Positions 25,505-63,445 of a DNA stretch of 64,000 bases are shown here, piece by piece. The notes beneath the pieces were generated by a model. That model saw only the letters and a program-made list of their open reading frames with translations, ran no database searches and was not told the DNA's origin. Position 1 is the first letter of the stretch. Each line of letters starts with the position of its first letter. Origin of the DNA: Edaphobacter sp. (lineage in GTDB: Bacteria > Acidobacteriota > Terriglobia > Terriglobales > Acidobacteriaceae); NCBI RefSeq assembly GCF_028283685.1, contig NZ_JAPWKF010000009.1, positions 124,001 to 188,000 of the forward strand, given 5' to 3'. The translations under genes were made by a program, and so were the position numbers.

Positions 25505-28500
25505 GCTCGATTCGCCGTTTGTGGCAATCTTCGACTGCGATCACGTTCCGACGCGAAGCTTTCTGCAGATGACGATCGGATGGTTTCAGCGCGATACCAA
25601 ACTGGCAATGCTGCAGACGCCGCATCACTTCTACTCCCCTGATCCGTTTGAGCGGAATCTCAATACGTTTCGCGTCATTCCGAATGAGGGAGAGCTGTTC
25701 TATGGCATCGTTCAGGATGGCAACGACTTCTGGAATGCGACGTTCTTCTGCGGCTCCTGCGCGGTGCTGCGCCGTACGGCTCTCGATGAGATCGGCGGTA
25801 TCGCGGTGGAAACCATCACGGAAGATGCGCATACCTCCCTGCGCATGCAGATGAATGGCTGGAACACCGCGTACATCAATATTCCGCAGGCAGCTGGCCT
25901 GGCGACGGAGCGGCTGAGCGGCCACGTCAAGCAGCGTATCCGCTGGGCGCGCGGCATGATTCAGATCCTGCGCACGGATAATCCGCTCTTTGCGAAGGGA
26001 CTGCGGCCGGCACAGCGTCTCTGCTACTTCAATGCGATGACGCACTTTCTCTATGCACTGCCGCGTCTGATCTTTCTGACGGCTCCCCTGATCTATCTCA
26101 TCCTGGGGCAGGTCAATGTTCCCGGGTACTGGGCAGCGATTCTGGCGTATGCGTTGCCGCATCTGTTCCTTTCGAATATCACCAACTCGCGTATTCAAGG
26201 GCAGCACCGCCACTCCTTCTGGAACGAGATCTATGAGACGGTGCTGGCGCCGTTCATCTTTTTGCCGACGATGCTGGCCCTGGTCAATCCGAAGTTCGGA
26301 AGCTTCGATGTGACGGCGAAGGGCGGCGTCGTGAATCGGCGCTTCTTCGACTCCCGCATCGCCCGGCCATTCCTGTTCATGATGGGGTTGAATATCGTTG
26401 GCATGCTGATGGGAATTCCGCGCTTCTTCCATATTCCTCTTCCGCTGATTCGCGATCTGTATGACGCAGGCCACGGTGGCACGGTGGTGATGAACCTCAT
26501 CTGGGTGTGCTTCAACATGGTGATTCTGGGGGTGTGCTCGGCGGTGGCCTGGGAGAATGCGCAGCGGCGCCAGACGGTTCGTATCGAGATGGCGATTCCG
26601 GTCGAGGTCAAGATGCCGGATGGAGGCTCCATCAAGGGAACGACGATCGACATGTCGACCGGCGGCCTGATGGCGACGATGGATCAGGGCTTCGACCTCA
26701 AGCTGGGAGATCCTGTCAGGCTGGCGCTGCCGGTGCTTGAGGGCACAGCCTCTTTTCCGGGGACGATTATGGAGCTCCGGGGCAACGTTCTGCGAGCACA
26801 GTTCGATCCACTCACTCTTCTGGAGGAAGAGGCGCTGACGATTGTGCTCTACTCCCGCGCAGACACATGGCTGGGCTGGGGTGAGAACCGTGAGTCCGAT
26901 CGTCCGATGAAGAGCCTGGCGCTGATCTTCAAGCTCTCTCTGATTGGTCTGGCCGAGACGGGAAGAAACGTGATGAAGATGCTTCAGAAGTCCGATTCCA
27001 AGGGCAAGTCCAAGACGAAGCTGGCGGTCAACAGTGCTCCGCTGATTCTCTTTCTGTTCCTGCTGATGTCGTCGGGACTGCAGGCGCAACGCCCTTCGAG
27101 GACATCAGCGGCTGTTCCTGGGGCGGACGTGATGGCTCCTGCGCCGGAGAGGACTGCTGCCACGACCTCACCCGCGAACTTCGATACCACCTTCACCTTC
27201 AGCGATCTTGGCGTGCCGGACACGATTGTGTTGCGGGGTGTGGATGCTTATCACACGATCAGCTTTTCGTTGCCCCAGACGCAGGTCGTCAAAGCGGCTA
27301 CGCTGCACCTGCAGTATCACTTTTCTCCGGGTCTGATCCCGGCATTGAGCCATCTCAAGGTCTCGCTGAACGGCACGGTATTTGCGACGCTACCGGTGAC
27401 GGTGACTCCGACGCCTCCTGCTCCGGGAGAGGAGCAGGGCCCCCGGCACGAGAACAACGCTCTATTGGAGGCGACTCTAACGCTGCCGGCTGAGATGATG
27501 GTGCGCGAGAACCAGCTCACCTTCGAGTTCATCGGCCATTACACAATGGAGTGCGAAGATCCGGCCCATACAACGCTGTGGAGTCATGTGGATGCAACTT
27601 CGACGCTGGAGCTTTCGGGAGCGTTGATTCCGCTGAAAGATGATCTCAGGCTGCTTCCCCAGCCCTTCTACGATGCGGCGGTCAACCTGCATCCTTCGAT
27701 TCCGGTTGCTTTCCTGGGGCAGCCCTCGCCGCGGGCGATGCAGGCTGCGGGGATCGTGACCTCGTGGTTCGGTGTGATCACCAATTCGCGGCCGGTCCGT
27801 TTTCCTGTGTCGATCGGATCGATTCCATCGGGCAACGCCATTGTGATTGCGGAGAATGCGGCGGATCTGCCGGTGAGCCTGCGCCCCGGAGTGCCGGGGC
27901 CGAGCGTTGCCATGCGAGCCAATCCTTCCGATCCATATTCGAAGGTACTGGTGCTGACCGGAGACAACGCGGATGACCTGTTGACGGCTGCGCTTGGTCT
28001 TGCCTTGCAGCGCGATCTCCTCTCCGGGGATACCACGCGCATCGCGTCACTGAAGATGCCGGCGCAGCGTCAGCCCGACGATGCGCCGCGGTGGCTGTCG
28101 ACAGACCGGGATACACCGATTGGCGAGATCGCACAGACCATCGATCTGCAGGGGGACGGCTCGGTTCCGATGCGCATTTACATGCGCGTGCCGCCGGATC
28201 TTTACTACGGCCAGAAGCAATATCTCACGTTCCACCTGGGATACCGGTACAACGGTATTCCTATTTCGAATCAGAGCTCGATGCAGGTGTACATGAACGA
28301 TGCCTACATCAGCTCGACGCCGTTGCCACACTCCCAGAGCGCTTCGGCGCGCCTGGAGCAGACGATCGGCATTCCGATCGGCGATATGCGTCCCTTTTCG
28401 AATACCTTCATGACGCAGTTCATCTTCCTTCTGGCCAAGAACGGGAAGTGCCAGGACACGGCGCCTTACAACATGAAGGCAGCCATCATGAAGGACTCGT

Positions 28501-29309
28501 ACCTCGAGATCCAGGACATTCCGCATTGGACGGCTCTGCCGAACCTGGAGATCTTTGCCAATGCAGGCTATCCCTTTACGCGCCGCGCCGACCTTTCGGA
28601 TACGGCCGTGGTGCTCCCCGGAACGCCGACAGGAGATGAGATTGAGACGTACCTCACCTTCATGGGGCACTTCGGCAGCCAGACCGGCTATCCGGTCACG
28701 AATGTCACGGTGACGGATTCCGATGGGATGAAGGCTGATTCGCGCAAGGATTACCTTGTGATTGGCACGGTTGACGACTCACCGGCGCTGGCGCGCCTGA
28801 ATCCTTCACTGCCGGTGGTTGTCGACGGCAGCGGACTTCACATTCAGGATACGCAGGGGTTCTTTTCGTCGCTGCAACATGCGTGGTGGAAGGTTCGCAG
28901 CTCTGACCGCGTGCAATCGGGAGAGCTGGAGACTGCTGGAGGCCTTCCTGACGCGTTGATCGAGGGTGTGGAGTGGCCAGCGAATTCCGGCCGTTCCGTG
29001 GTGCTGGTGGCGCTGCGGGATCATGCGGTCGTGCCGAACTTTCTTTCGGTGTTTCTCAATACGTCGCAGTCTTCGGATATCTCTCAGTCTGTCAGCGTGC
29101 TGCATGGACGTCGTTTTGCCTCTTACCGGATCGGCAACGATGTCTACTACGTCGGTTCGCTTTCGTGGTGGACTCACATCAATCTGCTGTTCTCGAAGTA
29201 TCAGTGGGCGATGGTGGTTGGCCTGTTCTTGATCGCATTCCTGATGGCGACTGTGGTTCGTGCGAGCCTGCGGCGTCGTGCGAAGAAGCGGTTGCAGGGT
29301 AATGCTTAA
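25467..29309 (+). CDS. bcsB: BcsA C-terminal part (GT2, PilZ) fused to BcsB, as read
   Basis: The shifted frame reads 1280 codons; its first 12 are out of phase with the protein and ATG 25467 is not a natural start. It contains the DCD, TED and QRIRW motifs of the synthase, a c-di-GMP-binding PilZ domain, then from about 26970 a hydrophobic segment (LAVNSAPLILFLFLLMSSGL) and the periplasmic BcsB part: carbohydrate-binding and flavodoxin-like domains (DTIVLRGVDAYHTISFSLP, TFEFIGHYTMECEDPAH) and a C-terminal membrane anchor (WAMVVGLFLIAFLMATVV). BcsB guides the growing glucan through the periplasm. A BcsA-BcsB fusion is known in Komagataeibacter (AcsAB). Confidence 0.8.
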   Translation: MPRQETSTALSPRLDSPFVAIFDCDHVPTRSFLQMTIGWFQRDTKLAMLQTPHHFYSPDPFERNLNTFRVIPNEGELFYGIVQDGNDFWNATFFCGSCAVLRRTALDEIGGIAVETITEDAHTSLRMQMNGWNTAYINIPQAAGLATERLSGHVKQRIRWARGMIQILRTDNPLFAKGLRPAQRLCYFNAMTHFLYALPRLIFLTAPLIYLILGQVNVPGYWAAILAYALPHLFLSNITNSRIQGQHRHSFWNEIYETVLAPFIFLPTMLALVNPKFGSFDVTAKGGVVNRRFFDSRIARPFLFMMGLNIVGMLMGIPRFFHIPLPLIRDLYDAGHGGTVVMNLIWVCFNMVILGVCSAVAWENAQRRQTVRIEMAIPVEVKMPDGGSIKGTTIDMSTGGLMATMDQGFDLKLGDPVRLALPVLEGTASFPGTIMELRGNVLRAQFDPLTLLEEEALTIVLYSRADTWLGWGENRESDRPMKSLALIFKLSLIGLAETGRNVMKMLQKSDSKGKSKTKLAVNSAPLILFLFLLMSSGLQAQRPSRTSAAVPGADVMAPAPERTAATTSPANFDTTFTFSDLGVPDTIVLRGVDAYHTISFSLPQTQVVKAATLHLQYHFSPGLIPALSHLKVSLNGTVFATLPVTVTPTPPAPGEEQGPRHENNALLEATLTLPAEMMVRENQLTFEFIGHYTMECEDPAHTTLWSHVDATSTLELSGALIPLKDDLRLLPQPFYDAAVNLHPSIPVAFLGQPSPRAMQAAGIVTSWFGVITNSRPVRFPVSIGSIPSGNAIVIAENAADLPVSLRPGVPGPSVAMRANPSDPYSKVLVLTGDNADDLLTAALGLALQRDLLSGDTTRIASLKMPAQRQPDDAPRWLSTDRDTPIGEIAQTIDLQGDGSVPMRIYMRVPPDLYYGQKQYLTFHLGYRYNGIPISNQSSMQVYMNDAYISSTPLPHSQSASARLEQTIGIPIGDMRPFSNTFMTQFIFLLAKNGKCQDTAPYNMKAAIMKDSYLEIQDIPHWTALPNLEIFANAGYPFTRRADLSDTAVVLPGTPTGDEIETYLTFMGHFGSQTGYPVTNVTVTDSDGMKADSRKDYLVIGTVDDSPALARLNPSLPVVVDGSGLHIQDTQGFFSSLQHAWWKVRSSDRVQSGELETAGGLPDALIEGVEWPANSGRSVVLVALRDHAVVPNFLSVFLNTSQSSDISQSVSVLHGRRFASYRIGNDVYYVGSLSWWTHINLLFSKYQWAMVVGLFLIAFLMATVVRASLRRRAKKRLQGNA

Positions 29310-47550: not shown

Positions 47551-48384
47551 TTAGTAAAAAGTACTTTGTTCGCGGGGCTTGTCTTTGATGCCAAGTGGCT
47601 CGAGCAGCGCTTTGGCGCCCATCTTCATGAGGCCGAGCTCGGTGACAGACTGAAAGAACTGGAAGCCCTGCGAGTGGAAGCGCTTGACCTCTTCTGCGCT
47701 ACCGGCAGGGCGACCCAGCCACTTGCCATGACGTTTGGCAGAGGCGACGATCTTCGCGATGGCTTCATCGAGCAACGGCTCTTGCTGACGGCCGCGTAGA
47801 CCGAGTGAGAAAGAGAGGTCGCTGACACCGATGAAGAGCACATCGATACCCGGAGTGGCTGCGATCTCTTCGATCTGCTCTACGCCGCAGGCCTCTTCGA
47901 TTACACAGACAACGAGGACATTCGCGTCGGCGGAATCGTAGTAATTGCCGGGCGCGGGCCAGGTTGTCGCCGCAAGCCCTGCGCCGGAACCACGGCGGCC
48001 GAAAGGAGGATAGTGGCAGCCCTGTGCCGCAATGCGGGCGCGCTCAACGCTGGAGATGAAAGGGAAGATAACGCCCTGTACTCCTTGATCGAGCACACGT
48101 TTAGAGAGCCACAACTCTGCCCACGGAACGCGCGCGAAGGCAGGAACAGTAAGGCCACGAGTCGCAAGCACAAGGGTGCGCAGTGATTCCAGGGAGAAGG
48201 AGGAGTGCTCCATCTCGACCCAGAGAAAGTGAAAGCCGAGTGTGGCAGCGTAGGCAGCGGTTTCGACGTTGTTGGAGCTCACCGTCATGCCGATAACGTA
48301 GTCGCCCGCCTTGAGACGCTCGCGAACGACACTCCATGTATCGGTCGAGACGGGATGCAGGTCTGCACGGTAATCGTTGCCCAT
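47551..48384 (-). CDS. HpcH/HpaI family aldolase
   Basis: A 277-residue class II aldolase-type TIM barrel: VSSNNVETAAYAATLGFHFLWVEMEHSSFS, FARVPWAELWLSKRVLDQGVQGVIFPFISSVE, and VIEEACGVEQIEEIAATPGIDVLFIGVSDLS (metal-binding Glu and Asp). Relatives cleave 2-keto-3-deoxy sugar acids to pyruvate and an aldehyde. It is the last gene of the operon led by the TonB receptor, 3 bp after the hydrolase-like gene; ATG 48384 follows AAAGGAG. The substrate is probably a keto-deoxy acid made by this locus. Confidence 0.9.
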   Translation of the reverse strand: MGNDYRADLHPVSTDTWSVVRERLKAGDYVIGMTVSSNNVETAAYAATLGFHFLWVEMEHSSFSLESLRTLVLATRGLTVPAFARVPWAELWLSKRVLDQGVQGVIFPFISSVERARIAAQGCHYPPFGRRGSGAGLAATTWPAPGNYYDSADANVLVVCVIEEACGVEQIEEIAATPGIDVLFIGVSDLSFSLGLRGRQQEPLLDEAIAKIVASAKRHGKWLGRPAGSAEEVKRFHSQGFQFFQSVTELGLMKMGAKALLEPLGIKDKPREQSTFY

Positions 48385-50897: not shown

Positions 50898-53800
50898 TTA
50901 CCAGTGGAAGCGGGCGGCGAACTGCATCTGCCGTGCGGTGGCGCCGACGGCGAGCGCAGAGATTTTACCTGCAGCTGCTGAGCCGATGCTGTTGCCGGGG
51001 AAGGAGAAGTTAGCTGTGTTCATGATGTTGAAGGCCTCAGCGCGGAACTGCATGCCGAGACTTTCGTAGATGTGAAAGTCCTTGTGCAGACCAACGTCGA
51101 TGGTCTGGTACATCGGTCCGATGAGGATGTTTCTGCCGGTATTGCCGAAGGTGTATTGCGCAGGATTCACGAAGCAACTGGTGTTGTAGTACGCCGCCAG
51201 GGTCCGTTGGCCGCTGGGAAGGTTCCCATTGCAGATGCGGTTAGGACGCAGGAAGGTACCCGTGTTGAGAGAGGAGTTGGATGACATCGAAACGGAGAAT
51301 GGTGCGCCGCTCTGCCAGGTGAGAATGCTGGTGAGATCCCAGCCGCCGATGACCTGATTAAGCAGCGGATTGATGCTCGATGCATACTGGCGCCCACGAC
51401 CGAAAGGAAGCTCGTAGACGGGGCTGAAGGTGAAGACGTGGCGGTGATCGAAGTCGGAGAGTCCGTAATCGGCCGAGAGATTACGGGGGTTCTGAATATT
51501 GACGCGCGACTCAGAGGAGGAGGAGTTGCCGCCTGAGCCTTCGTCGATGCTGTGGCTCCAGGTATAAGAGGCGAGATATTGCAGACCATGCCATGCGCGC
51601 TGTTCCGCAGAGAGCTGCAGAGCGTTGTAGCTGGAGACTCCGCGGTTTTCCCATGCCTGGATGGTGGAGTATGCAGGGTAGGGCGAGCGTGCCGTCACAC
51701 TTCCCGGGCCGGGTATCGCCACGTTTTCATTGAGAGCGATGCCGAGGTGTGTTCCCTTGGAGCCAACATAGGAGCTGCGCACAACAAGCGAACTGTTGAC
51801 TTGATGCTCGAGCGTCAGGTTCCACTGATTGACATATGGTGTCGGGTTGCGCAGAGGGAAGTAGACGACGACGGGTACGTTACTGGCTGAAGGTGCAAGT
51901 GGAATGCCGCCCGCAGTGCTCAGGCAGGGAGCGGTCGAGGAGCAGGTCTGGGTAAAGGTCTGCGCAAAAGGATAGTTGAGGAAGAGTCGGGCGGAAGAGC
52001 CGGTGCCCTGCTCGTTGAAGAAGTAAGCACCGTACGCCGAGCGGAGAACCGTCTTATCGCCGAGTTTGTAGGCGAGGCTGATACGCGGTGTGAAGTTGAA
52101 CTTTTGCGTCTGGACAATACCGCGGCTGTAGCCGCCTTGCCCGGCGACGACAACGGTGCCGGTGCTGCCGGCGACCGGCGAGATGCTGCCACCGGAGGGC
52201 ACGAAATCGGCCTGGCGGTTTTTACGATCGACGAGCGCGGTGAAGAGATCGTAACGGATACCGAAGACGGCGGTGAGTCGTGGTGTGATGCGCCATGTGT
52301 CCTGCGCATAGCTTCCAATGTCGGAGTAGCTAATGTAAGGCATGCCGCTGGGGAGGAGGGACTTGCTGGCGCTCACAGGAAGACCGAGCAGAAAGTCGGC
52401 AAAGCCGGAGCCTCCAGCAGAGGTGCCGCTGTTGGTGTACGTGCCGGAGTAGCTGAGGGCGCCAGAGGGAGCGCTGAGCTGATTAAATCCAAAATTATTG
52501 TGGACGCCGCTGAAGCCGAAGCGCATAACGTGTGCGCCGTGGTTGAGGATAAGGTTGTCGGAGATCTGGATGGTGTTCTGCGGCACGATCTCGGGCTGGA
52601 AGCTGGCACTGTAGCCACTGAAGCCGGTGATGGTGAGCGAGGCAAGACCGGAGCCGTCGGTGTTGGACGCGGTATTGGCGCCGAGAAGACCAAGAGCCGT
52701 AGAGGTGTTGTAGCCGCTGTCCAGGGGGGTGACCCGGAGTATGAATCGGGTGTAGCCGAGAGCAAGCTCGTTGACGAGCGACGAGCTGAAGATATGTGTC
52801 TCCTGCAGTGTGGCCTGCAGGCTGGGCGCATGGTTGTTGCGGTTTGCCCCGGCGAAGGCGAGTGGGTTGAAGGTGTTGCCGATCTTGACCGGGGTGTCGG
52901 GAAAGCTGATGTCGGCGCGGCCGTTGGTGTACTGGAAGAACATGCTGTCCTTCGAACTCATGACGTAGTCCACGCGGGCGTCGTACTGGTGCTGCACGTT
53001 GACCTGAAGATTGTTATAGCGGAAGTTGTTCGCGTTGCCAGGAAGGTTGGGCTGTGGGATGACCTGTAGCAGATTGACGGCGACAGGATCAAAGCGCGAG
53101 GGATTGATCTGGTTGTTCGCGAACGGTGTCCGTGTACCCGTTGCGGGGTTGTAGCTATTGGGATCGTAAATATTGGCAAAGCCTTGAAAGTTGCCTGCGC
53201 GCATGGCAGCGGTCGGTACGCTGGTGATGGCGGTGGGTGCGGTGTGGGTGATGAGTCCCTGATAGTCGGCGAAGAAAAAGAGCCTGTCTTTGATGATGGG
53301 GCCGCCGATTGAGCCTCCAAACTGGTTTTGCTGGAAGATCGGCTTGGAGGAATCGAAGTAGCCGCGCGCATCGAGTGCGGAGTTGCGGAAGAACTCGAAT
53401 GCCGATCCGTGGAACTGGTTGGAGCCACTGCGCGTGACGACATTAACAACAGCGCCGCCAGCGGCGAACTGCGCATCGGAGTTGCCGATCTGGACCTTGA
53501 ACTCCTGGATGTCTTCGAGGTTGGGAAAGACCTTGGCAGTGCCGACGGACTGGTCGACGTCCTGGATGCCGTTGATCATGTAGAGATTGAAGCTGCCGCG
53601 TGCACCGTTGGCGGTGATAGAGGTTCCGGCGCGCTGTGTCTCGTTGCCTCCACCGGAGGCGCGGACGCCTCCTACAGAACCGGAGTTGACGCCGGGTACC
53701 AGAAGGGCAAGCTGCGAAAAGTTGCGTCCGTTGAGCGGCAACTGCACGACGGGTTCGTGCGAGATGACATTGCCGAGTTCGCCGGACTCTGTGTTGAGCA

Positions 53801-54242
53801 GGGGAGAGCCGGTGGAGACGTTGACGGTTTCGGTGACCTGACCCACCTTGAGCGCGAAGTCCTGGTTGAGCACCTGACCGACCTGCAGCGTGAGGCCGCT
53901 GGTGAGTGAGCTCTCAAAGCCAGTGGCACTAATTCTGACGGAGTAGGTACCAGGCTTGAGGAAGCCGGCGGAGTAGAAACCGGAGCTGTTTGTCGTCAAC
54001 TTCGACTCGACATTCGTCTGTAACTCCACGATGGAGACGACCGCGCCGCTGACCAGATTGCCCTGCGAGTCTGTGATTCGGCCCGAGATGGTGCCGGTGG
54101 AATTGACCTGCGCAGAGGCAAAGAGGGTGCTCAAGACGATGAGCACCAGGGCGCATACCGCTTTACGGTAGTGCCGCCAGCTAAAACCATGTACGTGAAA
54201 GACCTGATCAAGAGTTGTTGCACCGAGTCGTAGGCTGTTCAT
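50898..54242 (-). CDS. TonB-dependent receptor, Oar/SusC-like with carboxypeptidase regulatory domain
   Basis: A 1114-residue outer membrane protein. After a signal peptide (about 28-46, ...LFASAQ) comes the carboxypeptidase regulatory-like domain (TGTISGRITDSQGNLVSGAVVSI), a plug (LPLNGRNFSQLALLVPGV, about 170-190) and the beta-barrel, ending with a terminal aromatic FHW. Such receptors import large oligomers using TonB energy and are numerous in Acidobacteria. First gene of the operon with the hydrolase-like and aldolase genes. ATG 54242 follows AAAGGAAC. A TGTCTACA site lies about 108 bp upstream. Confidence 0.94.
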   Translation of the reverse strand: MNSLRLGATTLDQVFHVHGFSWRHYRKAVCALVLIVLSTLFASAQVNSTGTISGRITDSQGNLVSGAVVSIVELQTNVESKLTTNSSGFYSAGFLKPGTYSVRISATGFESSLTSGLTLQVGQVLNQDFALKVGQVTETVNVSTGSPLLNTESGELGNVISHEPVVQLPLNGRNFSQLALLVPGVNSGSVGGVRASGGGNETQRAGTSITANGARGSFNLYMINGIQDVDQSVGTAKVFPNLEDIQEFKVQIGNSDAQFAAGGAVVNVVTRSGSNQFHGSAFEFFRNSALDARGYFDSSKPIFQQNQFGGSIGGPIIKDRLFFFADYQGLITHTAPTAITSVPTAAMRAGNFQGFANIYDPNSYNPATGTRTPFANNQINPSRFDPVAVNLLQVIPQPNLPGNANNFRYNNLQVNVQHQYDARVDYVMSSKDSMFFQYTNGRADISFPDTPVKIGNTFNPLAFAGANRNNHAPSLQATLQETHIFSSSLVNELALGYTRFILRVTPLDSGYNTSTALGLLGANTASNTDGSGLASLTITGFSGYSASFQPEIVPQNTIQISDNLILNHGAHVMRFGFSGVHNNFGFNQLSAPSGALSYSGTYTNSGTSAGGSGFADFLLGLPVSASKSLLPSGMPYISYSDIGSYAQDTWRITPRLTAVFGIRYDLFTALVDRKNRQADFVPSGGSISPVAGSTGTVVVAGQGGYSRGIVQTQKFNFTPRISLAYKLGDKTVLRSAYGAYFFNEQGTGSSARLFLNYPFAQTFTQTCSSTAPCLSTAGGIPLAPSASNVPVVVYFPLRNPTPYVNQWNLTLEHQVNSSLVVRSSYVGSKGTHLGIALNENVAIPGPGSVTARSPYPAYSTIQAWENRGVSSYNALQLSAEQRAWHGLQYLASYTWSHSIDEGSGGNSSSSESRVNIQNPRNLSADYGLSDFDHRHVFTFSPVYELPFGRGRQYASSINPLLNQVIGGWDLTSILTWQSGAPFSVSMSSNSSLNTGTFLRPNRICNGNLPSGQRTLAAYYNTSCFVNPAQYTFGNTGRNILIGPMYQTIDVGLHKDFHIYESLGMQFRAEAFNIMNTANFSFPGNSIGSAAAGKISALAVGATARQMQFAARFHW

Positions 54243-54349
54243 CGACGTTCCTTTGGCATCGCTGCGGCTTCATGTGCGTTGAACAAATTCACCGACCGCG
54301 CGGGCACGGATTTTATTTCGCACGAAACTATACGCAGCGGCATATTTGA

Positions 54350-54368
54350 TGTCTACATGTCGGATACA
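54350..54368. promoter_or_regulatory. GntR-type operator candidate upstream of the TonB receptor operon
   Basis: TGTCTACA (54350-54357) followed directly by a second partial half-site set, TGTCGGATACA (54358-54368). It matches the core found before the other units of the locus with one change. Confidence 0.55.
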
Positions 54369-54534
54369 AAATATTTAAATACGTAGCGTATATCCATGAA
54401 GCAGGCAGTTGGGTCAGAGGTGGCTTGGGATGGAATATGGCGAAATATTTTTGATAAAATGTTCATTTATATATATTTAATCAGGAAGTTTCCAGCATGA
54501 CTCTGGAGTGATTCTTCAAGAATTTCTGTCGATT

Positions 54535-54550
54535 ATTGTGTCGACATAAT
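54535..54550. promoter_or_regulatory. GntR operator candidate upstream of gntR
   Basis: ATTGTGTCGACATAAT: the 8-bp palindrome TGTCGACA (54539-54546) with flanking ATT/AAT also symmetric. It lies about 95 bp before gntR, consistent with autoregulation. The 12-mer TGTCGACATAAT recurs exactly at 56936. Confidence 0.7.
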
Positions 54551-54641
54551 CGCGATTTTCCATCACGTTTTGAATGCAAAAGAGGCGGCGGAGTTTTCTA
54601 TGTATGCTCCTCGTGTACAGAAGTCGGTATTCTGAAACCAC

Positions 54642-55400
54642 ATGAAGACGAAGGCAAAGGCGAAAGTCAGCAAGTCGAATTTCACGATTCGCGAGAAGGC
54701 GTATCAATACATCCAGAGCCGCATTGCCTCGGGAGACCTGCCTTCGGGCGGAGCTATCTCGGAACTTTTGTTGGCGAAGGAGCTTGGGAGCAGTCGCACG
54801 CCGGTGCGCGAGGCGATCAGCCAGCTTGTCTCTGAAGGCTTGCTGGAGCAGACGCCGAACCGAGGCACGGTGGTGGTGCGCCTGACGCGTGAAGACATCG
54901 TTGATCTGTATGAGCTGCGTGAGGCGCTGGAGGTTTACGTCATCGCGAAGGTTACGCGCGAGCAGCTTCCGGCAGAGGACATTAAGCGGCTGGAACAGCT
55001 CTCGGACGGAATCCTATCGCTGGTGGATGAGCTTGCGACCACGGGTGAGCCTTATCTCAATGCGGAGCAGATGCAGCGTTTCGTGGCAGCAGATCGCGGA
55101 TTTCATGCGTTGCTGATGGCGTTTTCGTTCAATCCGCGCATTCGAAAGATTGTGGACGAGACGAGGTTGCTGATTCGCATCTTTGCGATGCGGCGCCTTG
55201 GATATGGAGCGGAGAAGCTGCGCAAGATCCACGCGCAGCATGCGGCCATTCTTGCAGCGATTGTGAGCCAGGATCCTGAGCTTGCGGTTCACCGCCTTGC
55301 GGAGCATATTCAGATCTCGCGGCAGGAGAGGCTGGATGAGTTCGATCGCAATCGTCGAGCGAGCACGATCGAACGAAGCTATTCAGACCTAAATCTCTGA
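54642..55400 (+). CDS. GntR family regulator, FadR/FCD subfamily
   Basis: A 252-residue regulator. Winged helix at 15-80 (KAYQYIQSRIASGDLPSGGAI, SRTPVREAISQLVSEGLLEQ, PNRGTVV), then the all-helical FCD ligand-binding domain (90-230; DIVDLYELREALEVYVI, FHALLMAFSFNPRI, HAAILAAIVSQDPELAV with metal-binding His). FCD regulators typically sense sugar acids or other carboxylates. The site TGTCGACA upstream of itself and all neighbouring units suggests it controls the locus. Its last 12 bp overlap the convergent MFS gene. Confidence 0.94.
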   Translation: MKTKAKAKVSKSNFTIREKAYQYIQSRIASGDLPSGGAISELLLAKELGSSRTPVREAISQLVSEGLLEQTPNRGTVVVRLTREDIVDLYELREALEVYVIAKVTREQLPAEDIKRLEQLSDGILSLVDELATTGEPYLNAEQMQRFVAADRGFHALLMAFSFNPRIRKIVDETRLLIRIFAMRRLGYGAEKLRKIHAQHAAILAAIVSQDPELAVHRLAEHIQISRQERLDEFDRNRRASTIERSYSDLNL

Positions 55401-56678
55401 GGTATTGGCTGCAGGCAGTAGGGGCGTTGCAGCTTCTGCAGCCTGGCTCTCTCTACGGACCCATTGGGAGGCGAGCAGCATGAGCAGGCCGATGACGAGG
55501 TAAATTGCACCGGTCGCGCTGATGCATGCGCTCATGCCAAACCTTGCCGATCCGATGGCGATGATGACAGGTGCGAGTCCGCCCCCTAGCCAGCCGAGTG
55601 AATTGGCGATACCGGCAGCGGTGCCGCGATTCTGGACGGAGACAACATCGTAGAGGCCAGCGATGATGTTGGCGTCGTAGAGGCCTTTGAAGTACCCGAA
55701 TCCGATCATGGCGAGCACCAGCAGCGGGATTGAGAGTGTCCATCCGGTAAGGAAGAGAAATGGAGCTCCGAAGAGCAGTCCAACGGCCTGGGTGAGTTGC
55801 CTCCCCCCACCGCGCTGGCGGGAGAAGCGGTCGGCGAGATAACCGCCACACAAGACACCGAGAAAGGATGCGGCCTGCAGATAGAGGCTGGCGTTGAGGC
55901 CCGCCATCGAGAGGCTCATGTGGAACTTCTTGTAGAGGAAGGTGGGCAGCCAGGTGAGGAAGACGACCGCCACGAAGTTCGCTCCCATGAAGATGCCGAT
56001 GAGCAGCAGAACGATGCGGTTGCCGAGGATCTCGCGCAGGGCCAGCGACGTGGATGTTTTTAGCGGTTGAAGACCGGTTGCGGCTTCGGACTGGCCGCGA
56101 GTGGGCTCACGCAAAAAGAAGATGAGAAGGATGCCGAGTGCGATTCCGCAGCCGCCAAAGAAGAGGAAGCTTGAGCGCCATCCGCTATGCTGGCCGACCA
56201 ATGCGGAGATGGACCCGCCAGCGATGCTGCCGGCGTAGACAGCGGTCTGATGCAACGACATTGCGCGTGAACGCGTGGACCCATCGTGGTAATCGCTGAT
56301 CATGGACATTGCAGCAGGGAAGTAGAATGCCTCGCCGAGGCCGCCGAGGGCACGACACCAGACCATTGCCTGGTAGGTGTGGGCGATGGCGGTTGCTCCT
56401 GTAACGGCCGACCAAAAAAGCAGGCTGCCAAGTATCAGCCATTTGCGTGAGAGGCGGTCGGTGAGCCATCCGGTGAAGGGGCCGCACAGAGCATACATCC
56501 ACATGAAGCAGGAACCGAGGATGCCGAGTTCGACATCGGAGAGGTGCATCTCGGTCTTAATGAGTGGGAAGAGGGAGAAAATAGCCTGCCGGTCGGCGTA
56601 GTTGAACAGGAAGACAAACCACAGCAGGCCGATGGTGATCCACTTCGTGCGCGTATTGGCCAACGTTGATCTTGGCAC
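55389..56678 (-). CDS. MFS transporter, anion:cation symporter type (hexuronate-like)
   Basis: A 429-residue carrier with 12 membrane helices. The N-terminal half shows LLWFVFLFNYADRQAIFSLFPLI and GWLTDRLSRKW between helices 2 and 3, the ACS-family pattern shared with ExuT/GudP. It probably imports the monomer or sugar acid used by this locus. The start is GTG 56678 with AGGAGAATAG upstream. TGTCGACA lies 91 bp before the start. Confidence 0.9.
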   Translation of the reverse strand: MPRSTLANTRTKWITIGLLWFVFLFNYADRQAIFSLFPLIKTEMHLSDVELGILGSCFMWMYALCGPFTGWLTDRLSRKWLILGSLLFWSAVTGATAIAHTYQAMVWCRALGGLGEAFYFPAAMSMISDYHDGSTRSRAMSLHQTAVYAGSIAGGSISALVGQHSGWRSSFLFFGGCGIALGILLIFFLREPTRGQSEAATGLQPLKTSTSLALREILGNRIVLLLIGIFMGANFVAVVFLTWLPTFLYKKFHMSLSMAGLNASLYLQAASFLGVLCGGYLADRFSRQRGGGRQLTQAVGLLFGAPFLFLTGWTLSIPLLVLAMIGFGYFKGLYDANIIAGLYDVVSVQNRGTAAGIANSLGWLGGGLAPVIIAIGSARFGMSACISATGAIYLVIGLLMLLASQWVRRESQAAEAATPLLPAANTSEI

Positions 56679-56768
56679 CTATTCTCCTGTGACTGAGCCG
56701 CTGCTTCCGGCATATCGGCCTGGCAGTTCGAAGCAAGCTCCATCGTTATAGAGGATCAAAGGGTTATC

Positions 56769-56776
56769 TGTCGACA
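56769..56776. promoter_or_regulatory. GntR operator candidate upstream of the MFS gene
   Basis: Exact palindrome TGTCGACA about 91 bp before the GTG start of the MFS gene. Confidence 0.65.
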
Positions 56777-56935
56777 TTTTGCGATGCTTTCATCGCGATA
56801 AGGATAGAAAAAGCATTTATTGGTTTTGAGCGCCGGATTTTTGTTTTGGCGCAAATCATTTGTAGTCTTCATGTTATTGGGATGTTTAATGGGTGATGGT
56901 TCGAGGTAGAACTTTCAAGAAATATGTATTCGTAT

Positions 56936-56947
56936 TGTCGACATAAT
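56936..56947. promoter_or_regulatory. GntR operator candidate upstream of the DapA-family gene
   Basis: TGTCGACATAAT, identical over 12 bp to the gntR site at 54539-54550. It lies about 105 bp before ATG 57053. Confidence 0.7.
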
Positions 56948-57052
56948 GATTTATTTTTATGTATAGTTGCTTTCAAATTGCAGGGCCGAAAGGCGCTGTA
57001 ACGAAATTTTCAGCTGGATGACTATCAGATTCGGCCGTCTTTGCTGCTTTGT

Positions 57053-57946
57053 ATGGTGAAACCTTTGACCTCTTTTCGTGGTGTGTACGCAGCTCTGCTC
57101 TCTCCGCGAGCCAGTGACGGTGAACTGGACGCGACCTCGTTCCAGCAACAGGTCATTGAGCTGAACAGGTTCAGCCTTCGCGGATATGCGATCAACGGTG
57201 CGACGGGCGAGTTTACGATCTCCTCCGACGAGGATATCGACGTACTTGTACGTACGGCTCGGCAGGAGGCTCCGCAGGCGGAGATACTATGCGGTATAGG
57301 TGCTGGTGATCTGCGCCTGACGGTGAGACGTGCGGGCATTGCCCAGCTTGCCGGGGCGCATGGCGTGCTGCTCCCGATGCCGAGCTTCTTTCCCTACCGT
57401 GAGGATGATCTGACTGCATATATCTCCGCGGTGGCATCGTCAGTCGAGTTGCCGATCCTGCTCTACAACCTGCCGCAGTTCACGTCGGGCTTGTCTGTGG
57501 ATACGATACTCTCTCTGTTTGCGAAGCACTCCAACATCATAGGCATCAAAGATTCATCGGGTTCGTTGGACATTGTGCGCGCGATGACGAAGGCAGGGCT
57601 GCCGCATGTACGAATGATCGGCAACGACTCTGCTCTGCCAGAGGCTTTGGTGGAAGGTGTTTGCGATGGCGTGGTGTCAGGAGTGGCATGTGCGCTGCCG
57701 GAGTTGATGGCTTCTCTGTTTGCGACGGGCGGACATGGCGATGCCTTTGCGAGAAAGACCGGTCAGCTGCAGGAGTTCATCGATCATCTGGGGCCGCTGC
57801 CGACGCCGTGGGGGCTGAAGGTGGCGTCGGCAGTGCGTCACTTTACGCGCGAGAGCTATCCGCTTCCGCTGAGTCCGGAGCGCGAGGCTGAAGTGGCTGA
57901 GCTTCGTGGATGGTTCATGGGGTGGTACAAGCGAACGCTCTCGTAG
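57053..57946 (+). CDS. Dihydrodipicolinate synthase/KDG aldolase family lyase
   Basis: A 297-residue class I aldolase TIM barrel. NGATGEFTIS (about 45-54) is the keto-acid carboxylate loop, LLYNLPQFTSG carries the catalytic Tyr, and IGIKDSSGSL the Schiff-base Lys. DapA itself is unlikely in this setting; relatives act on 2-keto-3-deoxy-gluconate, 5-dehydro-4-deoxyglucarate or N-acetylneuraminate. The locus context favours a sugar acid. ATG 57053 has no clear ribosome binding site; a TTG at 57041 is the alternative. Confidence 0.9.
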   Translation: MVKPLTSFRGVYAALLSPRASDGELDATSFQQQVIELNRFSLRGYAINGATGEFTISSDEDIDVLVRTARQEAPQAEILCGIGAGDLRLTVRRAGIAQLAGAHGVLLPMPSFFPYREDDLTAYISAVASSVELPILLYNLPQFTSGLSVDTILSLFAKHSNIIGIKDSSGSLDIVRAMTKAGLPHVRMIGNDSALPEALVEGVCDGVVSGVACALPELMASLFATGGHGDAFARKTGQLQEFIDHLGPLPTPWGLKVASAVRHFTRESYPLPLSPEREAEVAELRGWFMGWYKRTLS

Positions 57947-57964
57947 ATATTCGGCATGTTTGTC

Positions 57965-59560
57965 CTAGGTGGTCGTGACTCCGCAGAGCGAGACGTCCAT
58001 GCCCATTGCGCGGAAGCATTCTGCCTTTGCCATCATGGCCTCATCGGCTGTGGGTGCGTCGTTGGCGTAGGCCACATGGATGTGATTGGCCTTGTGCTGC
58101 GCCATCATCTGGTCGCGCGAGACGCCGTGGAGCACTGCACTCATCATCGGCCATTGGCGAGTCGTAATAGACCAGCGACGCTCGGTCTCCTCTTGCGGCA
58201 ACGCAACCACGGTGGCTCGACCGAGATCGGCTTTCAACTTGTTATCTTCGACGTAGACGCGGCTCCAGACGATCTCGCCGGGACGGCTATTTCCTTTGAT
58301 TGTGCCTCCTCCCAGCCGGAAGTACATTGGAGGCTGGCGTTCACTGGAGGCATCGGCGTATCCGTTGGCGAAATGGGCAGGAGGGACGGCTCCTGAGATC
58401 TCAAGCACCCAGACGAAGCTGCCGTCGTAGTCTTCTCCAAATCGAAGGTCGTGCAGCGTGTTTTCTGGAGGAAGGCTGAGAGCGTTCCATATTCTGTGAG
58501 TGATGAGAGCGTCGATGGCCGCGCATTCGTCAACTTCGTTGAAATGAGGCAATGCGCTACCGGCGAAGAGTTCACGTTGCCCATCGGCGGAAAAGACGGG
58601 AGGTCTCTCTGTATTGTTGAGCAGGCCTTCGGCGAGATCAGAGGCAGGAAGCATATCCCTGAGTCCCTGCTGATACTGAATGCCTATGGCCGCGCAGCCA
58701 AAGTTGTCGGCGATACGTACCGCTGCGATGTACATCTTCAGCTGGAGTAGTACCTGCGCGCTCGTTAGCTCGGTTGCTTCGTCCGTGCCCAAAGCGAATT
58801 GCATGCCACGCTGCTGGAGCCATTGCAAAGCAGCCTCACCTTCGGCGTCGGTTACCTGGGTGGTGGCGTAGGCGAGTGAGCTCTGGCTGAGGCGTTCCTT
58901 AAAAATGCCAGTTTGGTGAAGGAGATGGTCCGGCACAATGGCGTTGAACATTCCCATACAGCCTTCGTCAAAGACGCCAATGATGGCCTTCTCTTTCTTT
59001 AGGCGCGAGGCCTCGGCGACACCTATCTGCGTTGCACGTCCACTGGCTCCAGAGAAAGTATGGACGTGGGAACGATCGTGCGTAACAGTTCCGGTACTCA
59101 TCCATTCCCGGAGCCCTTTGAGAAAGAACTCGTCGGTGAAGTCGGCGCTCCACAAGGAGGAATATGGAACACCGGCTTTGGTGAGCGAACCGTTGAGGTT
59201 GAGCAGGCCGACGAGGCCCGGCCACTGGCCGTTCCAGTTGGCGACGGTAAGGACGGGACCTTTGTGAGTGGTCAGGCCGGGAAGGACATGATGGCTGTAC
59301 TGCCAGACGGCCTCTGCCACGATGAGTGGAGCGTCTTCGGGGATGGACTTGAAGACGTCCATTCCATAACGCTGCGAGTCAAGAAATCCATGCCTCTTCT
59401 CTGGCACATAGGAGTGAGCCCGCACAATTTTTCCGCCGAGACGTTCTACAGATTCAGCCAAAGCCGCTTCCATGGCTGCTTGTGCCGGCCAGCAGACTTG
59501 GTTGGCGTCGAGGCGAAGGTCTCCGCTAGCTACCAGATAGATCGTTGCAATCTCTTTCAT
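57965..59560 (-). CDS. L-fucose/L-arabinose isomerase-like protein
   Basis: A 531-residue protein resembling the L-fucose isomerase fold: N-terminal AQAAMEAALAESVERLGGKIVRAHSY, VAEAVWQYSHHVLPGL, NWNGQWPGLVGLLNLNGSL, central GCAAIGIQYQQGLRDM and a C-terminal beta domain with MYFRLGGGTIKGNSRPGEIVW. FucI family enzymes interconvert aldose and ketose using Mn2+; I cannot confirm all metal ligands, and the subgroup may have another role. ATG 59560 has no clear ribosome binding site. Two operator-like sites lie about 64-82 bp upstream. It converges with the DapA-family gene. Confidence 0.82.
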   Translation of the reverse strand: MKEIATIYLVASGDLRLDANQVCWPAQAAMEAALAESVERLGGKIVRAHSYVPEKRHGFLDSQRYGMDVFKSIPEDAPLIVAEAVWQYSHHVLPGLTTHKGPVLTVANWNGQWPGLVGLLNLNGSLTKAGVPYSSLWSADFTDEFFLKGLREWMSTGTVTHDRSHVHTFSGASGRATQIGVAEASRLKKEKAIIGVFDEGCMGMFNAIVPDHLLHQTGIFKERLSQSSLAYATTQVTDAEGEAALQWLQQRGMQFALGTDEATELTSAQVLLQLKMYIAAVRIADNFGCAAIGIQYQQGLRDMLPASDLAEGLLNNTERPPVFSADGQRELFAGSALPHFNEVDECAAIDALITHRIWNALSLPPENTLHDLRFGEDYDGSFVWVLEISGAVPPAHFANGYADASSERQPPMYFRLGGGTIKGNSRPGEIVWSRVYVEDNKLKADLGRATVVALPQEETERRWSITTRQWPMMSAVLHGVSRDQMMAQHKANHIHVAYANDAPTADEAMMAKAECFRAMGMDVSLCGVTTT

Positions 59561-59623
59561 GGAGAGTTCGATTACCTTTCCGTCACATTTGACGGAGCCA
59601 TGATACGTTTCGAGTTCTTGATG

Positions 59624-59642
59624 TGTCTACATCGTGTCGACA
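59624..59642. promoter_or_regulatory. Double GntR operator candidate upstream of the isomerase-like gene
   Basis: TGTCTACA (59624-59631) and TGTCGACA (59635-59642), centres 11 bp apart, that is about one helical turn. Confidence 0.65.
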
Positions 59643-59803: not shown

Positions 59804-62800
59804 TTAGAGCCTGTCAGGAAGCGGTGCCTCATCGCCTACCGAGCTAATAAATTCCGCATATTTGAAGCCGGCTCGTTGAAGCAGTCCTACGTAATCTGTG
59901 ACTTGTTTTGCCACCGTGGCGGGACTTGCAAGAGATTTCGGTGACGAAGCCAATTGCAAAAGCTGTGGCAACTGAATCCAAAACAGCAGCTCTTCGAGTC
60001 GCTCCTGATTGATGAATTCCGTTCCCCCCGCATTATTCACGCCAATCAGCCAACGAACGTCCGGTTCTGTCCAAAATTCTTCCGTGCGGAAAGCTTTTTC
60101 GGCATTGGTTGAGAACTTCAATAAAACGCGAATCTGGGCTGCGGCTTTCCAGGCAGCTTCCCCTTCGAGGCCTATAGACGAGAAGGTTTCTGCCAGCGCC
60201 CAACGAAGATTGAACTTGTCGAAGACCTCGAACGGCGTAACTTCCGGCGAAAGAGTCTGAAACACGAGCCAAGTTAAGACTGGGCCCCACGTTTTCATGG
60301 ATGAGGATGTTGCATCCAGGGAGGGGAAGACCGCGATGGCCACGGGCCGTAGCTCAGCAGGAAGAGCTGAGATCGTGGTCGGAAGTTTGAGAGAAGCCTT
60401 TATCCAATCCTCAAACTCTTTTCGTCGCGAGGCGTCGCTGTCCGTATCAGAGAGGCTGCCGGTGACAGCAGTACCGGAATCGATGACCAAGAGTTCATGC
60501 ACTTGATCTTTGAAATGGTGTGCGTATTTGACGAACTCTGCAGTGCTGGGCAGATTTATATCTTGTGTCTCTAATTTGGCAGTAGCTGCGATGGGAGAGC
60601 TGTCAGGCGCAATCTGCAATGGACTGCCTTTATCAGTACCAGGCTGACTGGACAGTGCGGCGAAGGTTTCAATGCTCTCCGTGGATACCGCCTTTCGCAG
60701 AGTTTCGAGGAGCGGACGGATCTGGAGTTTCGACAGGGCCTCTTCCAGGCTGTACACTCCAGAGCCGTGAAGAGCATTACATAAACGATCCCACGGTTGT
60801 GCTGCGGTAGGCCGAAGCTCACGCCAATTCAGTAACGCGACGTGCTGATAACCGCGAAGCGCTAGAGGCAGGCCGTTATCGCGTAGATCGCCCGCGTAGC
60901 GTAAAAACTCCAAGCCTGCGACGTTGTCTCTGTATGCGATCAGCATGGAATCGTCATTTGGCAAGTTGAGCCCGTGCGATAAACTTTTCTGCTGAATGGC
61001 ACCGCTGGCTTTATCGAGAAATCCTACCGAGAGGTGGATCGTTCCATGGGTCGATTGGTAGCTATTGTTATAAAGAATGACTGCGCGCTCATTGCCATGA
61101 CGATTGGAATAGGCAAATACGTTTTCATCGACGATTCCATGATCGTTCCAGAAGTCGTAAAGCAGGAAGTGTTCGCTCTCTGCAAACAGGTACCGAGACT
61201 TCAACAATGGCGCGATCAGGTGTTGATGTCTGGCGATGAGATCGTCGTTCGGGAATTCATCAAGGCGTGCCTGCTTGAAGTCCATTCCGTAGCGTTCTGT
61301 CAGGCCTTCGATCTGTCCATGGCCGAACATCGGTAGTCCAGGCAAAGTTGCGAGGAGCATGGAGACTCCGAAGTACTTGTCCCCTGTCCCGAATTGATCG
61401 ATGGCAGTCCGCTCGTCCGGATTGCTCATAAAGTTGACATAGCGTTTGAGGATATCCGGATCGAACTCCACGGTCTTTTTGAGATAGGAACGGTATTTAG
61501 CGTTCTCTTCATCGCGCAGCATGTTCATGAAGGCGCTGTTGTACACACGGTGCATGCCCAGCGTACGGACGAAATACCCTTCGAGGAGCCAGAACGCTTC
61601 GGCAAGCAGCAGCGTTCCCGGCACCTCGGTTGCGACCCGGTCCACGACCTCGCGCCAGAACTCATGTGGCATGAGCGCATTAAAGGCTTCGTCTGACATC
61701 GCGTTCTCTGCTCGAGACGGAATCGATCCACCTGTTCCCGGCAGAGGAAACCAAAGCCGCTGCACATGGCGCTTCGCCAGAACCATTGCGGCATCGAAGC
61801 GAATGATGGGGAACCGCTTTGCCACGTCGAGAATCACCTGGATTACGTGTTCTCTTACCTCTGATTTTAGATAATCAAGTTGCGCCGTATCATTCCACGC
61901 AAATGCCGTACCATCATTGCCATGGTAGACATACCGCGTGGTTCCGTTTGCATAGTGACGCAGGCGGAAGACAACTGCAGCATCTGAATGGTCGTAGTAG
62001 TGATCCTCGATCTTGATCTCAACGCGAGGATCTGTCGATATGTCGGGCCCATCAAACCGATACGCGGGGAATGGGCTCTCCCATCGCGACAAAAACCAAT
62101 CAGGATGCTCGATGACCCAATCGGAGTCGATTCCCATATGATTCGGAACCATGTCGCTAGCCAACCTCAGACCGACGGCGGCGGCGTGGTGTTTGAGATG
62201 CTGGTATGCGTTCTCTCCACCAAGATCCTGAGCGATGGTGTAGTTCTTGAGGGAATACGCTGAAGCGACAGCATCACTGTTGCCACGCAGCCGTTTTATT
62301 GTCATGGAGGCGTGGCTGCGCTCCCAAAGGCCAATGAGCCAAAGGCCGGTAATCCCCCTGTCGGCCAGCAATTGCAGCTCGCTATCGGGTATCTGATCTA
62401 ACCGATGGATATGACGTCCGTATTTCTTGGATAGCTGCTCCAGCCACACATAGGTGTTCTTCGCAATCAGTACGACCGTTGGCATCCAGGCCTGATCTGC
62501 GCTGAAAGCTTCGTATTCGTGGAGTGGGGCCTGGTAATCCCTCGCATATCTCCGCGGAGAGTCGTTTGCGCCCTGGGTCAGAGCGCCCTGTTGATCAAAG
62601 CCTACAAACTCGTTTCCAACAAAGCCTTCGGAGGTTCCCCCGGAATCCTTGTGCCCATGCCATACCGGACCGGGAGGGTGAAACCGCATCCATATCGCAA
62701 TCTCTTCTTCCCGCAGAACATCGATGGCCAGCAAGACACGCTTCAGATCGTTGCCAAGAACCGGTGACCAGTGCTCTCGAATGTAATCCAACTGACCGGT

Positions 62801-63445
62801 AAGCGAATCAGGAGAGGCCAGCATCGGTGCGGCCAGGGCCTCTAAAAGAGTTCCCATGCCCGCTTCAACGGTGGGGCGGGTTTTGAAATAGTCGCGCAGA
62901 ATTGTCGTTGCGGCGGAGTATGAGGTCGTGTCCTTGAGCTCTTTGTCGTCAAACAAGACGCTAAACGGAGCAAAGGCTGGATTTGAATTGGCAAACCATA
63001 GGAGGAGGAGCTCTTCCAGGGCAACCTCCTGATTGGGTGCGCCCTCAGTTTGCCCTGTAAGCCACTCCTGCGCTGTCAGATGCTTGCGGTACACATCAAC
63101 ATTGGGGAACTGCTCGGTGAAGGCTAATAAGATCCTGTCCCGCTGCTCCGATCCCACTTCCTTAGACAAAAACTGCAGTGCATCTGTGAGAGCAAGGGGA
63201 TCGGTTTTCTTGCGGTAGCTCGCAATGAGGGCATGACTGAGCTCATCGATCAATCCCATGGCAAAGAGAGCTGGACCGGTAATTGCCGTTCCAGGAGAGC
63301 CGCTTTTCTTGTCGATACCATTCAATTGTTCCGCTAACTTCCGGCTGGCGGTCACGTTCGCAAAGATTACGTTGCCAGAGAAGCTGAACAGCAGATCGTC
63401 GAGATCAATCTGTTCACGGATACGTCTTGAAATGTGAAACTCCAT
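59804..63445 (-). CDS. Long GH13 alpha-amylase-family enzyme
   Basis: A 1213-residue protein without a signal peptide. The GH13 barrel spans about 330-800: region I SDMVPNHMG (about 430), region II IRFDAAMVLAKRH with the nucleophile Asp (about 549), region III LLLAEAFW with the acid/base Glu (about 614), and region IV FMSNPDERTAIDQFG (about 673), where the usual NHD is NPD. DKYFGVSMLLATLPGLPMFGHGQ follows. The first 330 and last 350 residues match no domain I know. It probably acts on cytosolic alpha-glucans such as glycogen or maltodextrin. ATG 63445 follows GAGGAGC. Confidence 0.85.
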   Translation of the reverse strand: MEFHISRRIREQIDLDDLLFSFSGNVIFANVTASRKLAEQLNGIDKKSGSPGTAITGPALFAMGLIDELSHALIASYRKKTDPLALTDALQFLSKEVGSEQRDRILLAFTEQFPNVDVYRKHLTAQEWLTGQTEGAPNQEVALEELLLLWFANSNPAFAPFSVLFDDKELKDTTSYSAATTILRDYFKTRPTVEAGMGTLLEALAAPMLASPDSLTGQLDYIREHWSPVLGNDLKRVLLAIDVLREEEIAIWMRFHPPGPVWHGHKDSGGTSEGFVGNEFVGFDQQGALTQGANDSPRRYARDYQAPLHEYEAFSADQAWMPTVVLIAKNTYVWLEQLSKKYGRHIHRLDQIPDSELQLLADRGITGLWLIGLWERSHASMTIKRLRGNSDAVASAYSLKNYTIAQDLGGENAYQHLKHHAAAVGLRLASDMVPNHMGIDSDWVIEHPDWFLSRWESPFPAYRFDGPDISTDPRVEIKIEDHYYDHSDAAVVFRLRHYANGTTRYVYHGNDGTAFAWNDTAQLDYLKSEVREHVIQVILDVAKRFPIIRFDAAMVLAKRHVQRLWFPLPGTGGSIPSRAENAMSDEAFNALMPHEFWREVVDRVATEVPGTLLLAEAFWLLEGYFVRTLGMHRVYNSAFMNMLRDEENAKYRSYLKKTVEFDPDILKRYVNFMSNPDERTAIDQFGTGDKYFGVSMLLATLPGLPMFGHGQIEGLTERYGMDFKQARLDEFPNDDLIARHQHLIAPLLKSRYLFAESEHFLLYDFWNDHGIVDENVFAYSNRHGNERAVILYNNSYQSTHGTIHLSVGFLDKASGAIQQKSLSHGLNLPNDDSMLIAYRDNVAGLEFLRYAGDLRDNGLPLALRGYQHVALLNWRELRPTAAQPWDRLCNALHGSGVYSLEEALSKLQIRPLLETLRKAVSTESIETFAALSSQPGTDKGSPLQIAPDSSPIAATAKLETQDINLPSTAEFVKYAHHFKDQVHELLVIDSGTAVTGSLSDTDSDASRRKEFEDWIKASLKLPTTISALPAELRPVAIAVFPSLDATSSSMKTWGPVLTWLVFQTLSPEVTPFEVFDKFNLRWALAETFSSIGLEGEAAWKAAAQIRVLLKFSTNAEKAFRTEEFWTEPDVRWLIGVNNAGGTEFINQERLEELLFWIQLPQLLQLASSPKSLASPATVAKQVTDYVGLLQRAGFKYAEFISSVGDEAPLPDRL

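Follow-up and report, generated by a model that had tools for sequence, protein, structure and literature searches.

In a 64-kb stretch of DNA from an Edaphobacter sp. (hereafter the window; the source genome comprises 4.79 Mb in 10 contigs) lies a gene cluster that reads, from left to right, HpcH/HpaI-family aldolase, hydrolase-like protein and TonB-type receptor (all on the minus strand), gntR (plus), MFS transporter (minus), DapA-family enzyme (plus) and fucose-isomerase-like protein (minus), with copies of the palindrome TGTCGACA or its variant TGTCTACA upstream of the receptor, gntR, MFS, DapA-family and isomerase genes (Table 1). The aldolase resembles 2-dehydro-3-deoxyglucarate aldolase, with a score under that model's cut-off, and the DapA-family gene has an alternative start, ATG, at 57053. 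The analyses strongly support, at the level of sequence, a real and conserved GntR regulon marked by this palindrome, and we suggest that TGTCGACA (or TGTCTACA) is very probably the operator bound by the cluster's own FCD-type GntR protein, which would repress through the -35 box and be released by an acidic sugar.

Table 1. Genes and candidate regulatory sites of the locus (positions in the window; values after PF numbers are those of the Pfam matches; L068 is the locus of Edaphobacter modestus DSM 18101)
Feature	Position	Strand	Remarks
HpcH/HpaI-family aldolase	47551..48384	-	PF03328 2.1e-24; last gene of the TonB-receptor unit
Hydrolase-like protein, 829 aa	48388..50877	-	no Pfam family over cut-off
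TonB-dependent-receptor-like outer membrane protein, N-terminal carboxypeptidase-regulatory-like domain	50898..54242	-	PF25183 3.8e-261, PF13620 1.2e-20
Candidate -10 TATAGT, TonB-receptor promoter	54327..54332	-	conserved in L068
Candidate operator, TonB-receptor promoter	54350..54357	-	TGTAGACA read toward gene; final six bases TAGACA = candidate -35; TAGACA-N17-TATAGT
Candidate operator before gntR (TGTCGACA)	54539..54546		189 bp from 54350; no -10 at N17/18
gntR, GntR helix-turn-helix (HTH) and FCD domains, proposed repressor	54642..55400	+	PF00392 3e-15, PF07729 1.7e-18
MFS transporter	55389..56678	-	D-galactonate transporter-like, under that model's cut-off
Candidate -10 TATAAC, MFS promoter	56745..56750	-	conserved in L068
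Candidate operator, MFS promoter	56769..56776	-	TCGACA-N18-TATAAC
Candidate operator, dapA-family promoter	56936..56943	+	TCGACA-N18-TATAGT
Candidate -10 TATAGT, dapA-family promoter	56962..56967	+	conserved in L068
DapA-family enzyme (pyruvate-dependent aldolase or dehydratase class)	57041..57946	+	PF00701 1.5e-28
Isomerase-like protein, fucose/arabinose isomerase superfamily	57965..59560	-	PF07881 and PF02952 at 2.4e-5, both under cut-off; fold matches of low-confidence model
Candidate -10 TATCAT, isomerase promoter	59600..59605	-	sequence at expected distance
Candidate operator, isomerase promoter	59624..59631	-	TGTAGACA toward gene; TAGACA-N18-TATCAT
Second candidate operator, isomerase promoter	59635..59642	-	exactly 11 bp upstream of 59624 site

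The positions at which the initial annotation had placed the motif are all correct: TGTCGACA occurs exactly at 54539, 56769, 56936 and 59635 and TGTCTACA at 54350 and 59624, the sites at 54539 and 56936 share the 12 bases TGTCGACATAAT, and the one other copy of TGTCGACA (28096) is coding, within an open frame at 25467-29309 (+). A third copy of TGTCTACA, absent from that annotation, lies at 25375 within a called gene (L230). The five exact copies of TGTCGACA in the window compare with 0.80 expected, and none of 100 shuffles reached five. The gaps between site and called start amount to 107 bp for the TonB receptor, 95 for gntR, 90 for MFS, 63 and 74 for the isomerase, and 97 (TTG) or 109 (ATG) for the dapA-family gene. 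Adjoining the locus, a 1213-aa protein (59804-63445, minus strand) matches an alpha-amylase catalytic domain; between the start of its gene and the window end there is no exact TGTCGACA or TGTCTACA.

Genome-wide, TGTCGACA has 62 copies and the reversed control word 37, so that the 8-mer itself is not rare and the unusual part is its position. A simple gene caller based on codon scores, with the window as training set, classed 58 of the copies on fetched stretches; the other four were read in the window. All but two of the 58 fall in called genes, the exceptions being 56936 and a copy between convergent genes (L178); over the whole set 57 of 62 are called coding (28096 included), and four of the remaining five are those at 54539, 56769, 56936 and 59635. 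For five of the 57 the coding call is doubtful, either for a gene score of just 14 to 17 (L003, L177 and L058) or for a site no more than 17 bases from the called start (L003, L158 and L172), which counts against our interpretation in that up to six sites beyond the locus might be non-coding; with all five taken as non-coding, the locus still holds 4 of 10. At the genome mean rate the probability of at least four copies in 5.1 kb is 7.5e-7, or about 7e-4 across all such intervals. The scan did not return a large number of sites of equal quality between unrelated genes, the outcome that the initial annotation had named as evidence against a regulon. For TGTCTACA there are 64 copies, 14 of them outside called genes and two of those 14 in the locus; among these 14, only the locus pair reaches a -10 score of 10 (L302 scores 8), and no further regulon member was found by this route.

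In the nearest named relative found, Edaphobacter modestus DSM 18101 (Acidobacteriaceae), whose GntR protein is 93% identical, four of the six window sites are kept although the divergent spacers have partly diverged. The 54350 site is unchanged at L068:9707, within a longer conserved stretch that takes in the -10, and TGTCGACA is unchanged at the counterparts of 56769 (L068:12121) and 56936 (L068:12286), while the counterpart of 54539 (L068:9898) reads TGTAGACA, with one change.

Moreover, the palindrome recurs with the genes across the family. GntR relatives at an E value of 1e-40 or better are present in 11 of 150 family genomes (own genome counted), and in a ranking of all 256 palindromic 8-mers over 57 upstream entries (56 distinct, one region being entered twice) from 17 loci (given as 18), TGTCGACA came first with 16 entries in 10 loci, the runner-up having 4 entries; it was also top of all 8-mers in this set. 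Further dapA upstream regions carry TGTCGACA in 13 of 22 cases, the next palindromic 8-mer in 2, and a copy outside called genes is found in 26 of 29 dapA loci. The three exceptions are L202, with a site 30 bp before dapA that extends into the end of a gene called upstream, L024, where the module has the TGTCTACA form alone, and L346, from a genome that lacks the GntR relative; L350, from a genome likewise without it, has one copy, before a gene outside the module. Upstream of other FCD gntR genes, taken as a control, TGTCGACA is found in 1 of 71 loci. The commonest TGT-NN-ACA word in those loci (L076-L147) is TGTATACA, present in 8 of 71 and likely the operator of uncharacterised FCD regulators. 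At L071:9957 a copy of TGTCGACA overlaps the called gntR start codon.

The regulator gene co-occurs with genes of the pathway. A larger search of 398 family genomes (own included), tallied by hand, returned GntR relatives in 36, DapA in 34 and both in 31, against 3.1 expected, a figure inflated by the relatedness of the genomes and to that extent weaker support than it seems. Of the 29 dapA loci, 27 have MFS in the module, 24 GntR and 17 the isomerase, and for three more gntR lies on a different contig. Two genomes (G034 and G148) have gntR on a separate contig without an exact upstream site and the motif at the dapA operon; in G034 it also precedes the TonB receptor. The protein itself, which the initial annotation had rightly placed in the FCD class, comprises a GntR winged helix (residues 18-78) and an FCD domain (residues 88-224). 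Across 11 sequences, residues E41, R52, T53 and R56 do not vary, nor do D151, H155, H200 and H222, which are candidates for the Asp/His metal ligands of the FCD pocket. Its second-best match in the PDB (2.1e-16) is 6z74, presumably the VanR-type regulator Atu1419, and at the phmmer offset of 7 the first four residues would match Glu34, Arg45, Thr46 and Arg49 of that protein.

Considering that the binding of GntR to the motif is argued from sequence comparison, TGTCGACA could instead be the operator of another regulator, whether a further FCD GntR or one of global scope, with the local gntR a mere neighbour. This would account for the gntR relatives without a site of their own (within 300 bp upstream an exact site of either form is present in 16 of 30 and absent from 14), and some loci do contain other regulator genes, named by sequence reading as GntR/AraR-like (L021) and LacI-like (L024). 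Against it, gntR is the sole regulator among the window proteins followed and keeps company with DapA as described above; additionally, numerous intergenic sites would be expected of a global regulator, whereas outside the locus there is one clear site and up to five doubtful ones. We therefore regard a different regulator as unlikely, and return to the local GntR as the candidate binder.

The placement of the palindrome relative to promoter elements suggests how such a protein might act. Its final six bases toward the gene read TCGACA or TAGACA, a 5/6 match to TTGACA, the sigma-70 -35 consensus, and at the dapA, MFS, TonB-receptor and isomerase promoters a -10-like hexamer follows after 17 bp (TonB receptor) or 18 bp (the others). 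Of the 29 sites, 20 have a TATAAT-like hexamer at N17/18 (outside the window, 16 of 23), as against 1 of 56 coding copies, in either direction, although the coding controls are unlike spacers in base composition, a difference corrected for through the shifted-position control alone and one that weakens the contrast. The -10 score was, moreover, set after the window promoters had been seen, which lessens the weight of those promoters; the 36 sites of later loci (a set that omits L345, a repeat of L071) were new to it, and 19 of them have a -10 at N17/18, compared with 14.6% of positions shifted within those spacers, in either direction. Half-sites recur 11 bp away, with a left TGT at 8 of 29 sites and a right ACA at 10 of 29, compared with 0 and 0 of 56 coding copies; those at an offset of 9 are also raised (left 3 and right 6 of 29, against 1 and 0 of 56). 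Later loci have the 11-bp half-sites on the left in 6 of 36 and on the right in 8 of 36, and the 59624/59635 pair is the extreme form of this arrangement, with both copies complete.

The same geometry could be read as plain sigma-70 -35 boxes spelled TCGACA or TAGACA, the palindrome being coincidental to strong promoters, and the match to TTGACA together with the right -10 distance at most of the 29 sites is what such an account predicts. It is hard to reconcile, however, with TGTCGACA ranking first of palindromic 8-mers in two upstream sets, with its occurrence where no -10 follows and with the flanking half-sites at 11 and 9 bp, and we consider it very improbable. A chance cluster of a common 8-mer is rejected by the shuffles, the intergenic position and the cluster probability.

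For the GntR operator we regard the following mechanism as the most likely. A GntR dimer would read both TGT/ACA halves and cover the -35 box at the dapA, MFS, TonB-receptor and isomerase promoters; since the palindrome supplies that box with its final six bases, bound GntR would exclude RNA polymerase. Release from the DNA would follow when the FCD pocket takes up an acidic sugar or sugar acid. Cooperative binding or a DNA loop may be added by the weaker half-sites at 11 bp (one helical turn) and by the operator pairs, 189 and 167 bp apart, of the two divergent spacers; the site before gntR must act otherwise, or as a partner site. Helical phasing was tried as proof of operator looping and set aside as too weak.

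Several observations weigh against this interpretation. The phasing of paired sites reaches p 0.03 on 8 representatives and 0.28 for the long pairs alone. No -10 at N17/18 is found at 17 of the 36 later-locus sites, among them all six sites of the 21-bp pairs before TonB receptors in G188, G201 and G296, nor at the 54539 site before gntR. An exact site is missing from 9 of the 22 further dapA upstream regions; one of these nine, in G328, has the gene content and site spacing of L071, with the sites before an earlier gene, and the two probably represent the same organism. Of the two forms the L024 module has TGTCTACA only, the G148 site reaches into the end of a gene called upstream, and the isomerase promoter of E. 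modestus lacks equivalents of both 59624 and 59635. Given the 14 gntR relatives without an exact site and the lack of a -10 at the gntR site of the window, autoregulation does not appear to be general. The claim of the initial annotation that the motif marks every unit of the locus was accordingly too broad: sites do precede the TonB receptor, gntR, MFS, dapA and isomerase genes, but gntR and the isomerase, for the reasons just given, fit it poorly. The 21-bp TGTCGACA pairs lie before TonB-type receptors at L351:12689-12717, L352:3072-3100 and L353:2791-2819, and no -10 follows them at the usual spacing.

As to the substrate, NanA and NPL belong to the DapA superfamily, and cleavage of 3-deoxy-D-manno-octulosonic acid (Kdo) yields pyruvate and D-arabinose. 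Kdo is cleaved by E. coli NanA and human NPL (PMC13220900, in part). We tentatively consider, as a possibility that is on balance doubtful, that the regulon serves the breakdown of a 2-keto-3-deoxy sugar acid, for example Kdo, by a dedicated route, with the sugar acid as GntR inducer. In this route Kdo, from plant rhamnogalacturonan II or bacterial lipopolysaccharide, would be freed by a sialidase-like BNR protein and split by the DapA-family enzyme into pyruvate and arabinose, which the fucose/arabinose-type isomerase would convert to ribulose for phosphorylation by a ribulokinase. The window locus has neither the BNR protein nor the kinase gene, both being known from relatives' loci: the BNR protein from 6 of the 29 dapA loci and an FGGY-family kinase from 4, the two kinases tested being over the PRK04123 ribulokinase cut-off and under that of TIGR01234. 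All 41 matches of the isomerase model at E <1e-3 (mean predicted local distance difference test score, pLDDT, 51) are arabinose, fucose or D-arabinose isomerases; the hydrolase-like protein model (mean pLDDT 57) resembles GH115, GH84 and GH67, alpha-glucuronidases among them, which counts against Kdo. Both models are poor, so that the fold matches serve as leads only. A D-mannonate dehydratase over cut-off near gntR in G034 likewise speaks against Kdo and favours sugar acids in general. Family and PDB matches gave no resolution of the DapA-family substrate, and fucose and L-arabinose are possible alternatives.

Relatives of the isomerase-like protein are found in 32 of the 150 family genomes, against 11 for GntR, in several loci without the exact motif and also in loci with genes that read as alpha-fucosidase-like and rhamnulokinase-like. 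The 829-aa hydrolase-like protein, with relatives (44-57%) in four further Acidobacteria records, possibly represents an unassigned glycoside hydrolase family. That the TonB-type receptor and the transporter fall into one regulon with the hydrolase-like protein, the isomerase and both aldolase-family enzymes narrows the substrate search. A candidate operator, promoter map and gene set are now available for an uncharacterised acidic-sugar pathway carried by about one in thirteen sampled family genomes (31 of 398 with GntR and DapA).

Finally, the locus may be set beside known systems. A literature search, conducted partly by title, found no publication on a GntR regulon of the Acidobacteria group, and by its sequence features the regulon appears to be an undescribed one of a well-known kind. 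ExuR and UxuR are FCD regulators of sugar-acid genes, and the initial annotation had likened the palindrome to their sites. The half-site spacing agrees for UxuR, with two nucleotides between GT and AC, but not for ExuR, which has three (PMC4494728, in part). Beyond this spacing the comparison finds no support: GntR scores 16 bits on the ExuR model against a cut-off of 396 (the models included none for UxuR), UxaC (C9:342120) and UxuA (C1:276442 and C1:822402) lie outside this locus on other contigs, and the copies of TGTCGACA on contigs C1 and C9 are all called coding. On the ExuR score and these locations a uronate regulon is not supported.

Atu1419 of Agrobacterium fabrum offers a further parallel; its effector is said to be MEF, reportedly a folate derivative. 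This VanR-type FCD regulator likewise comprises a GntR HTH and an FCD domain, and binds ATGTATACAT through Glu34, Arg45, Thr46 and Arg49, apparently the same register as E41, R52, T53 and R56 here (PMC7797058, in part). According to the same partial source, its operator shares the TGT-N2-ACA frame with TGTCGACA, the centre being TA there and CG here; its operators overlap promoter elements, as the candidate operators do; and two of them lie 190 bp apart in one spacer, next to 189 and 167 bp here. Unlike the present locus, Atu1419 regulates hydroxycinnamate degradation, and its tetramer and loop have been demonstrated (PMC7797058, in part), whereas a loop here is a possibility.

Among FadR-subfamily regulons, as far as the available portions of the survey extend, neither the core TGTCGACA nor this gene content nor, in the taxonomy table, any Acidobacteria are found (PMC4494728). 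The candidate site nevertheless fits, by sequence comparison, the consensus GT-N2/3-AC form of FCD GntR operators near target genes, and GntR, HpxS, HypR, MdcY, PrpR and UxuR have GT and AC two bases apart, as here (PMC4494728, in part). Extra weaker boxes 7-12 nt from the centre of those sites resemble the 11-bp half-sites described here, and paired sites in divergent spacers are common to those regulons and to this locus (PMC4494728, in part).

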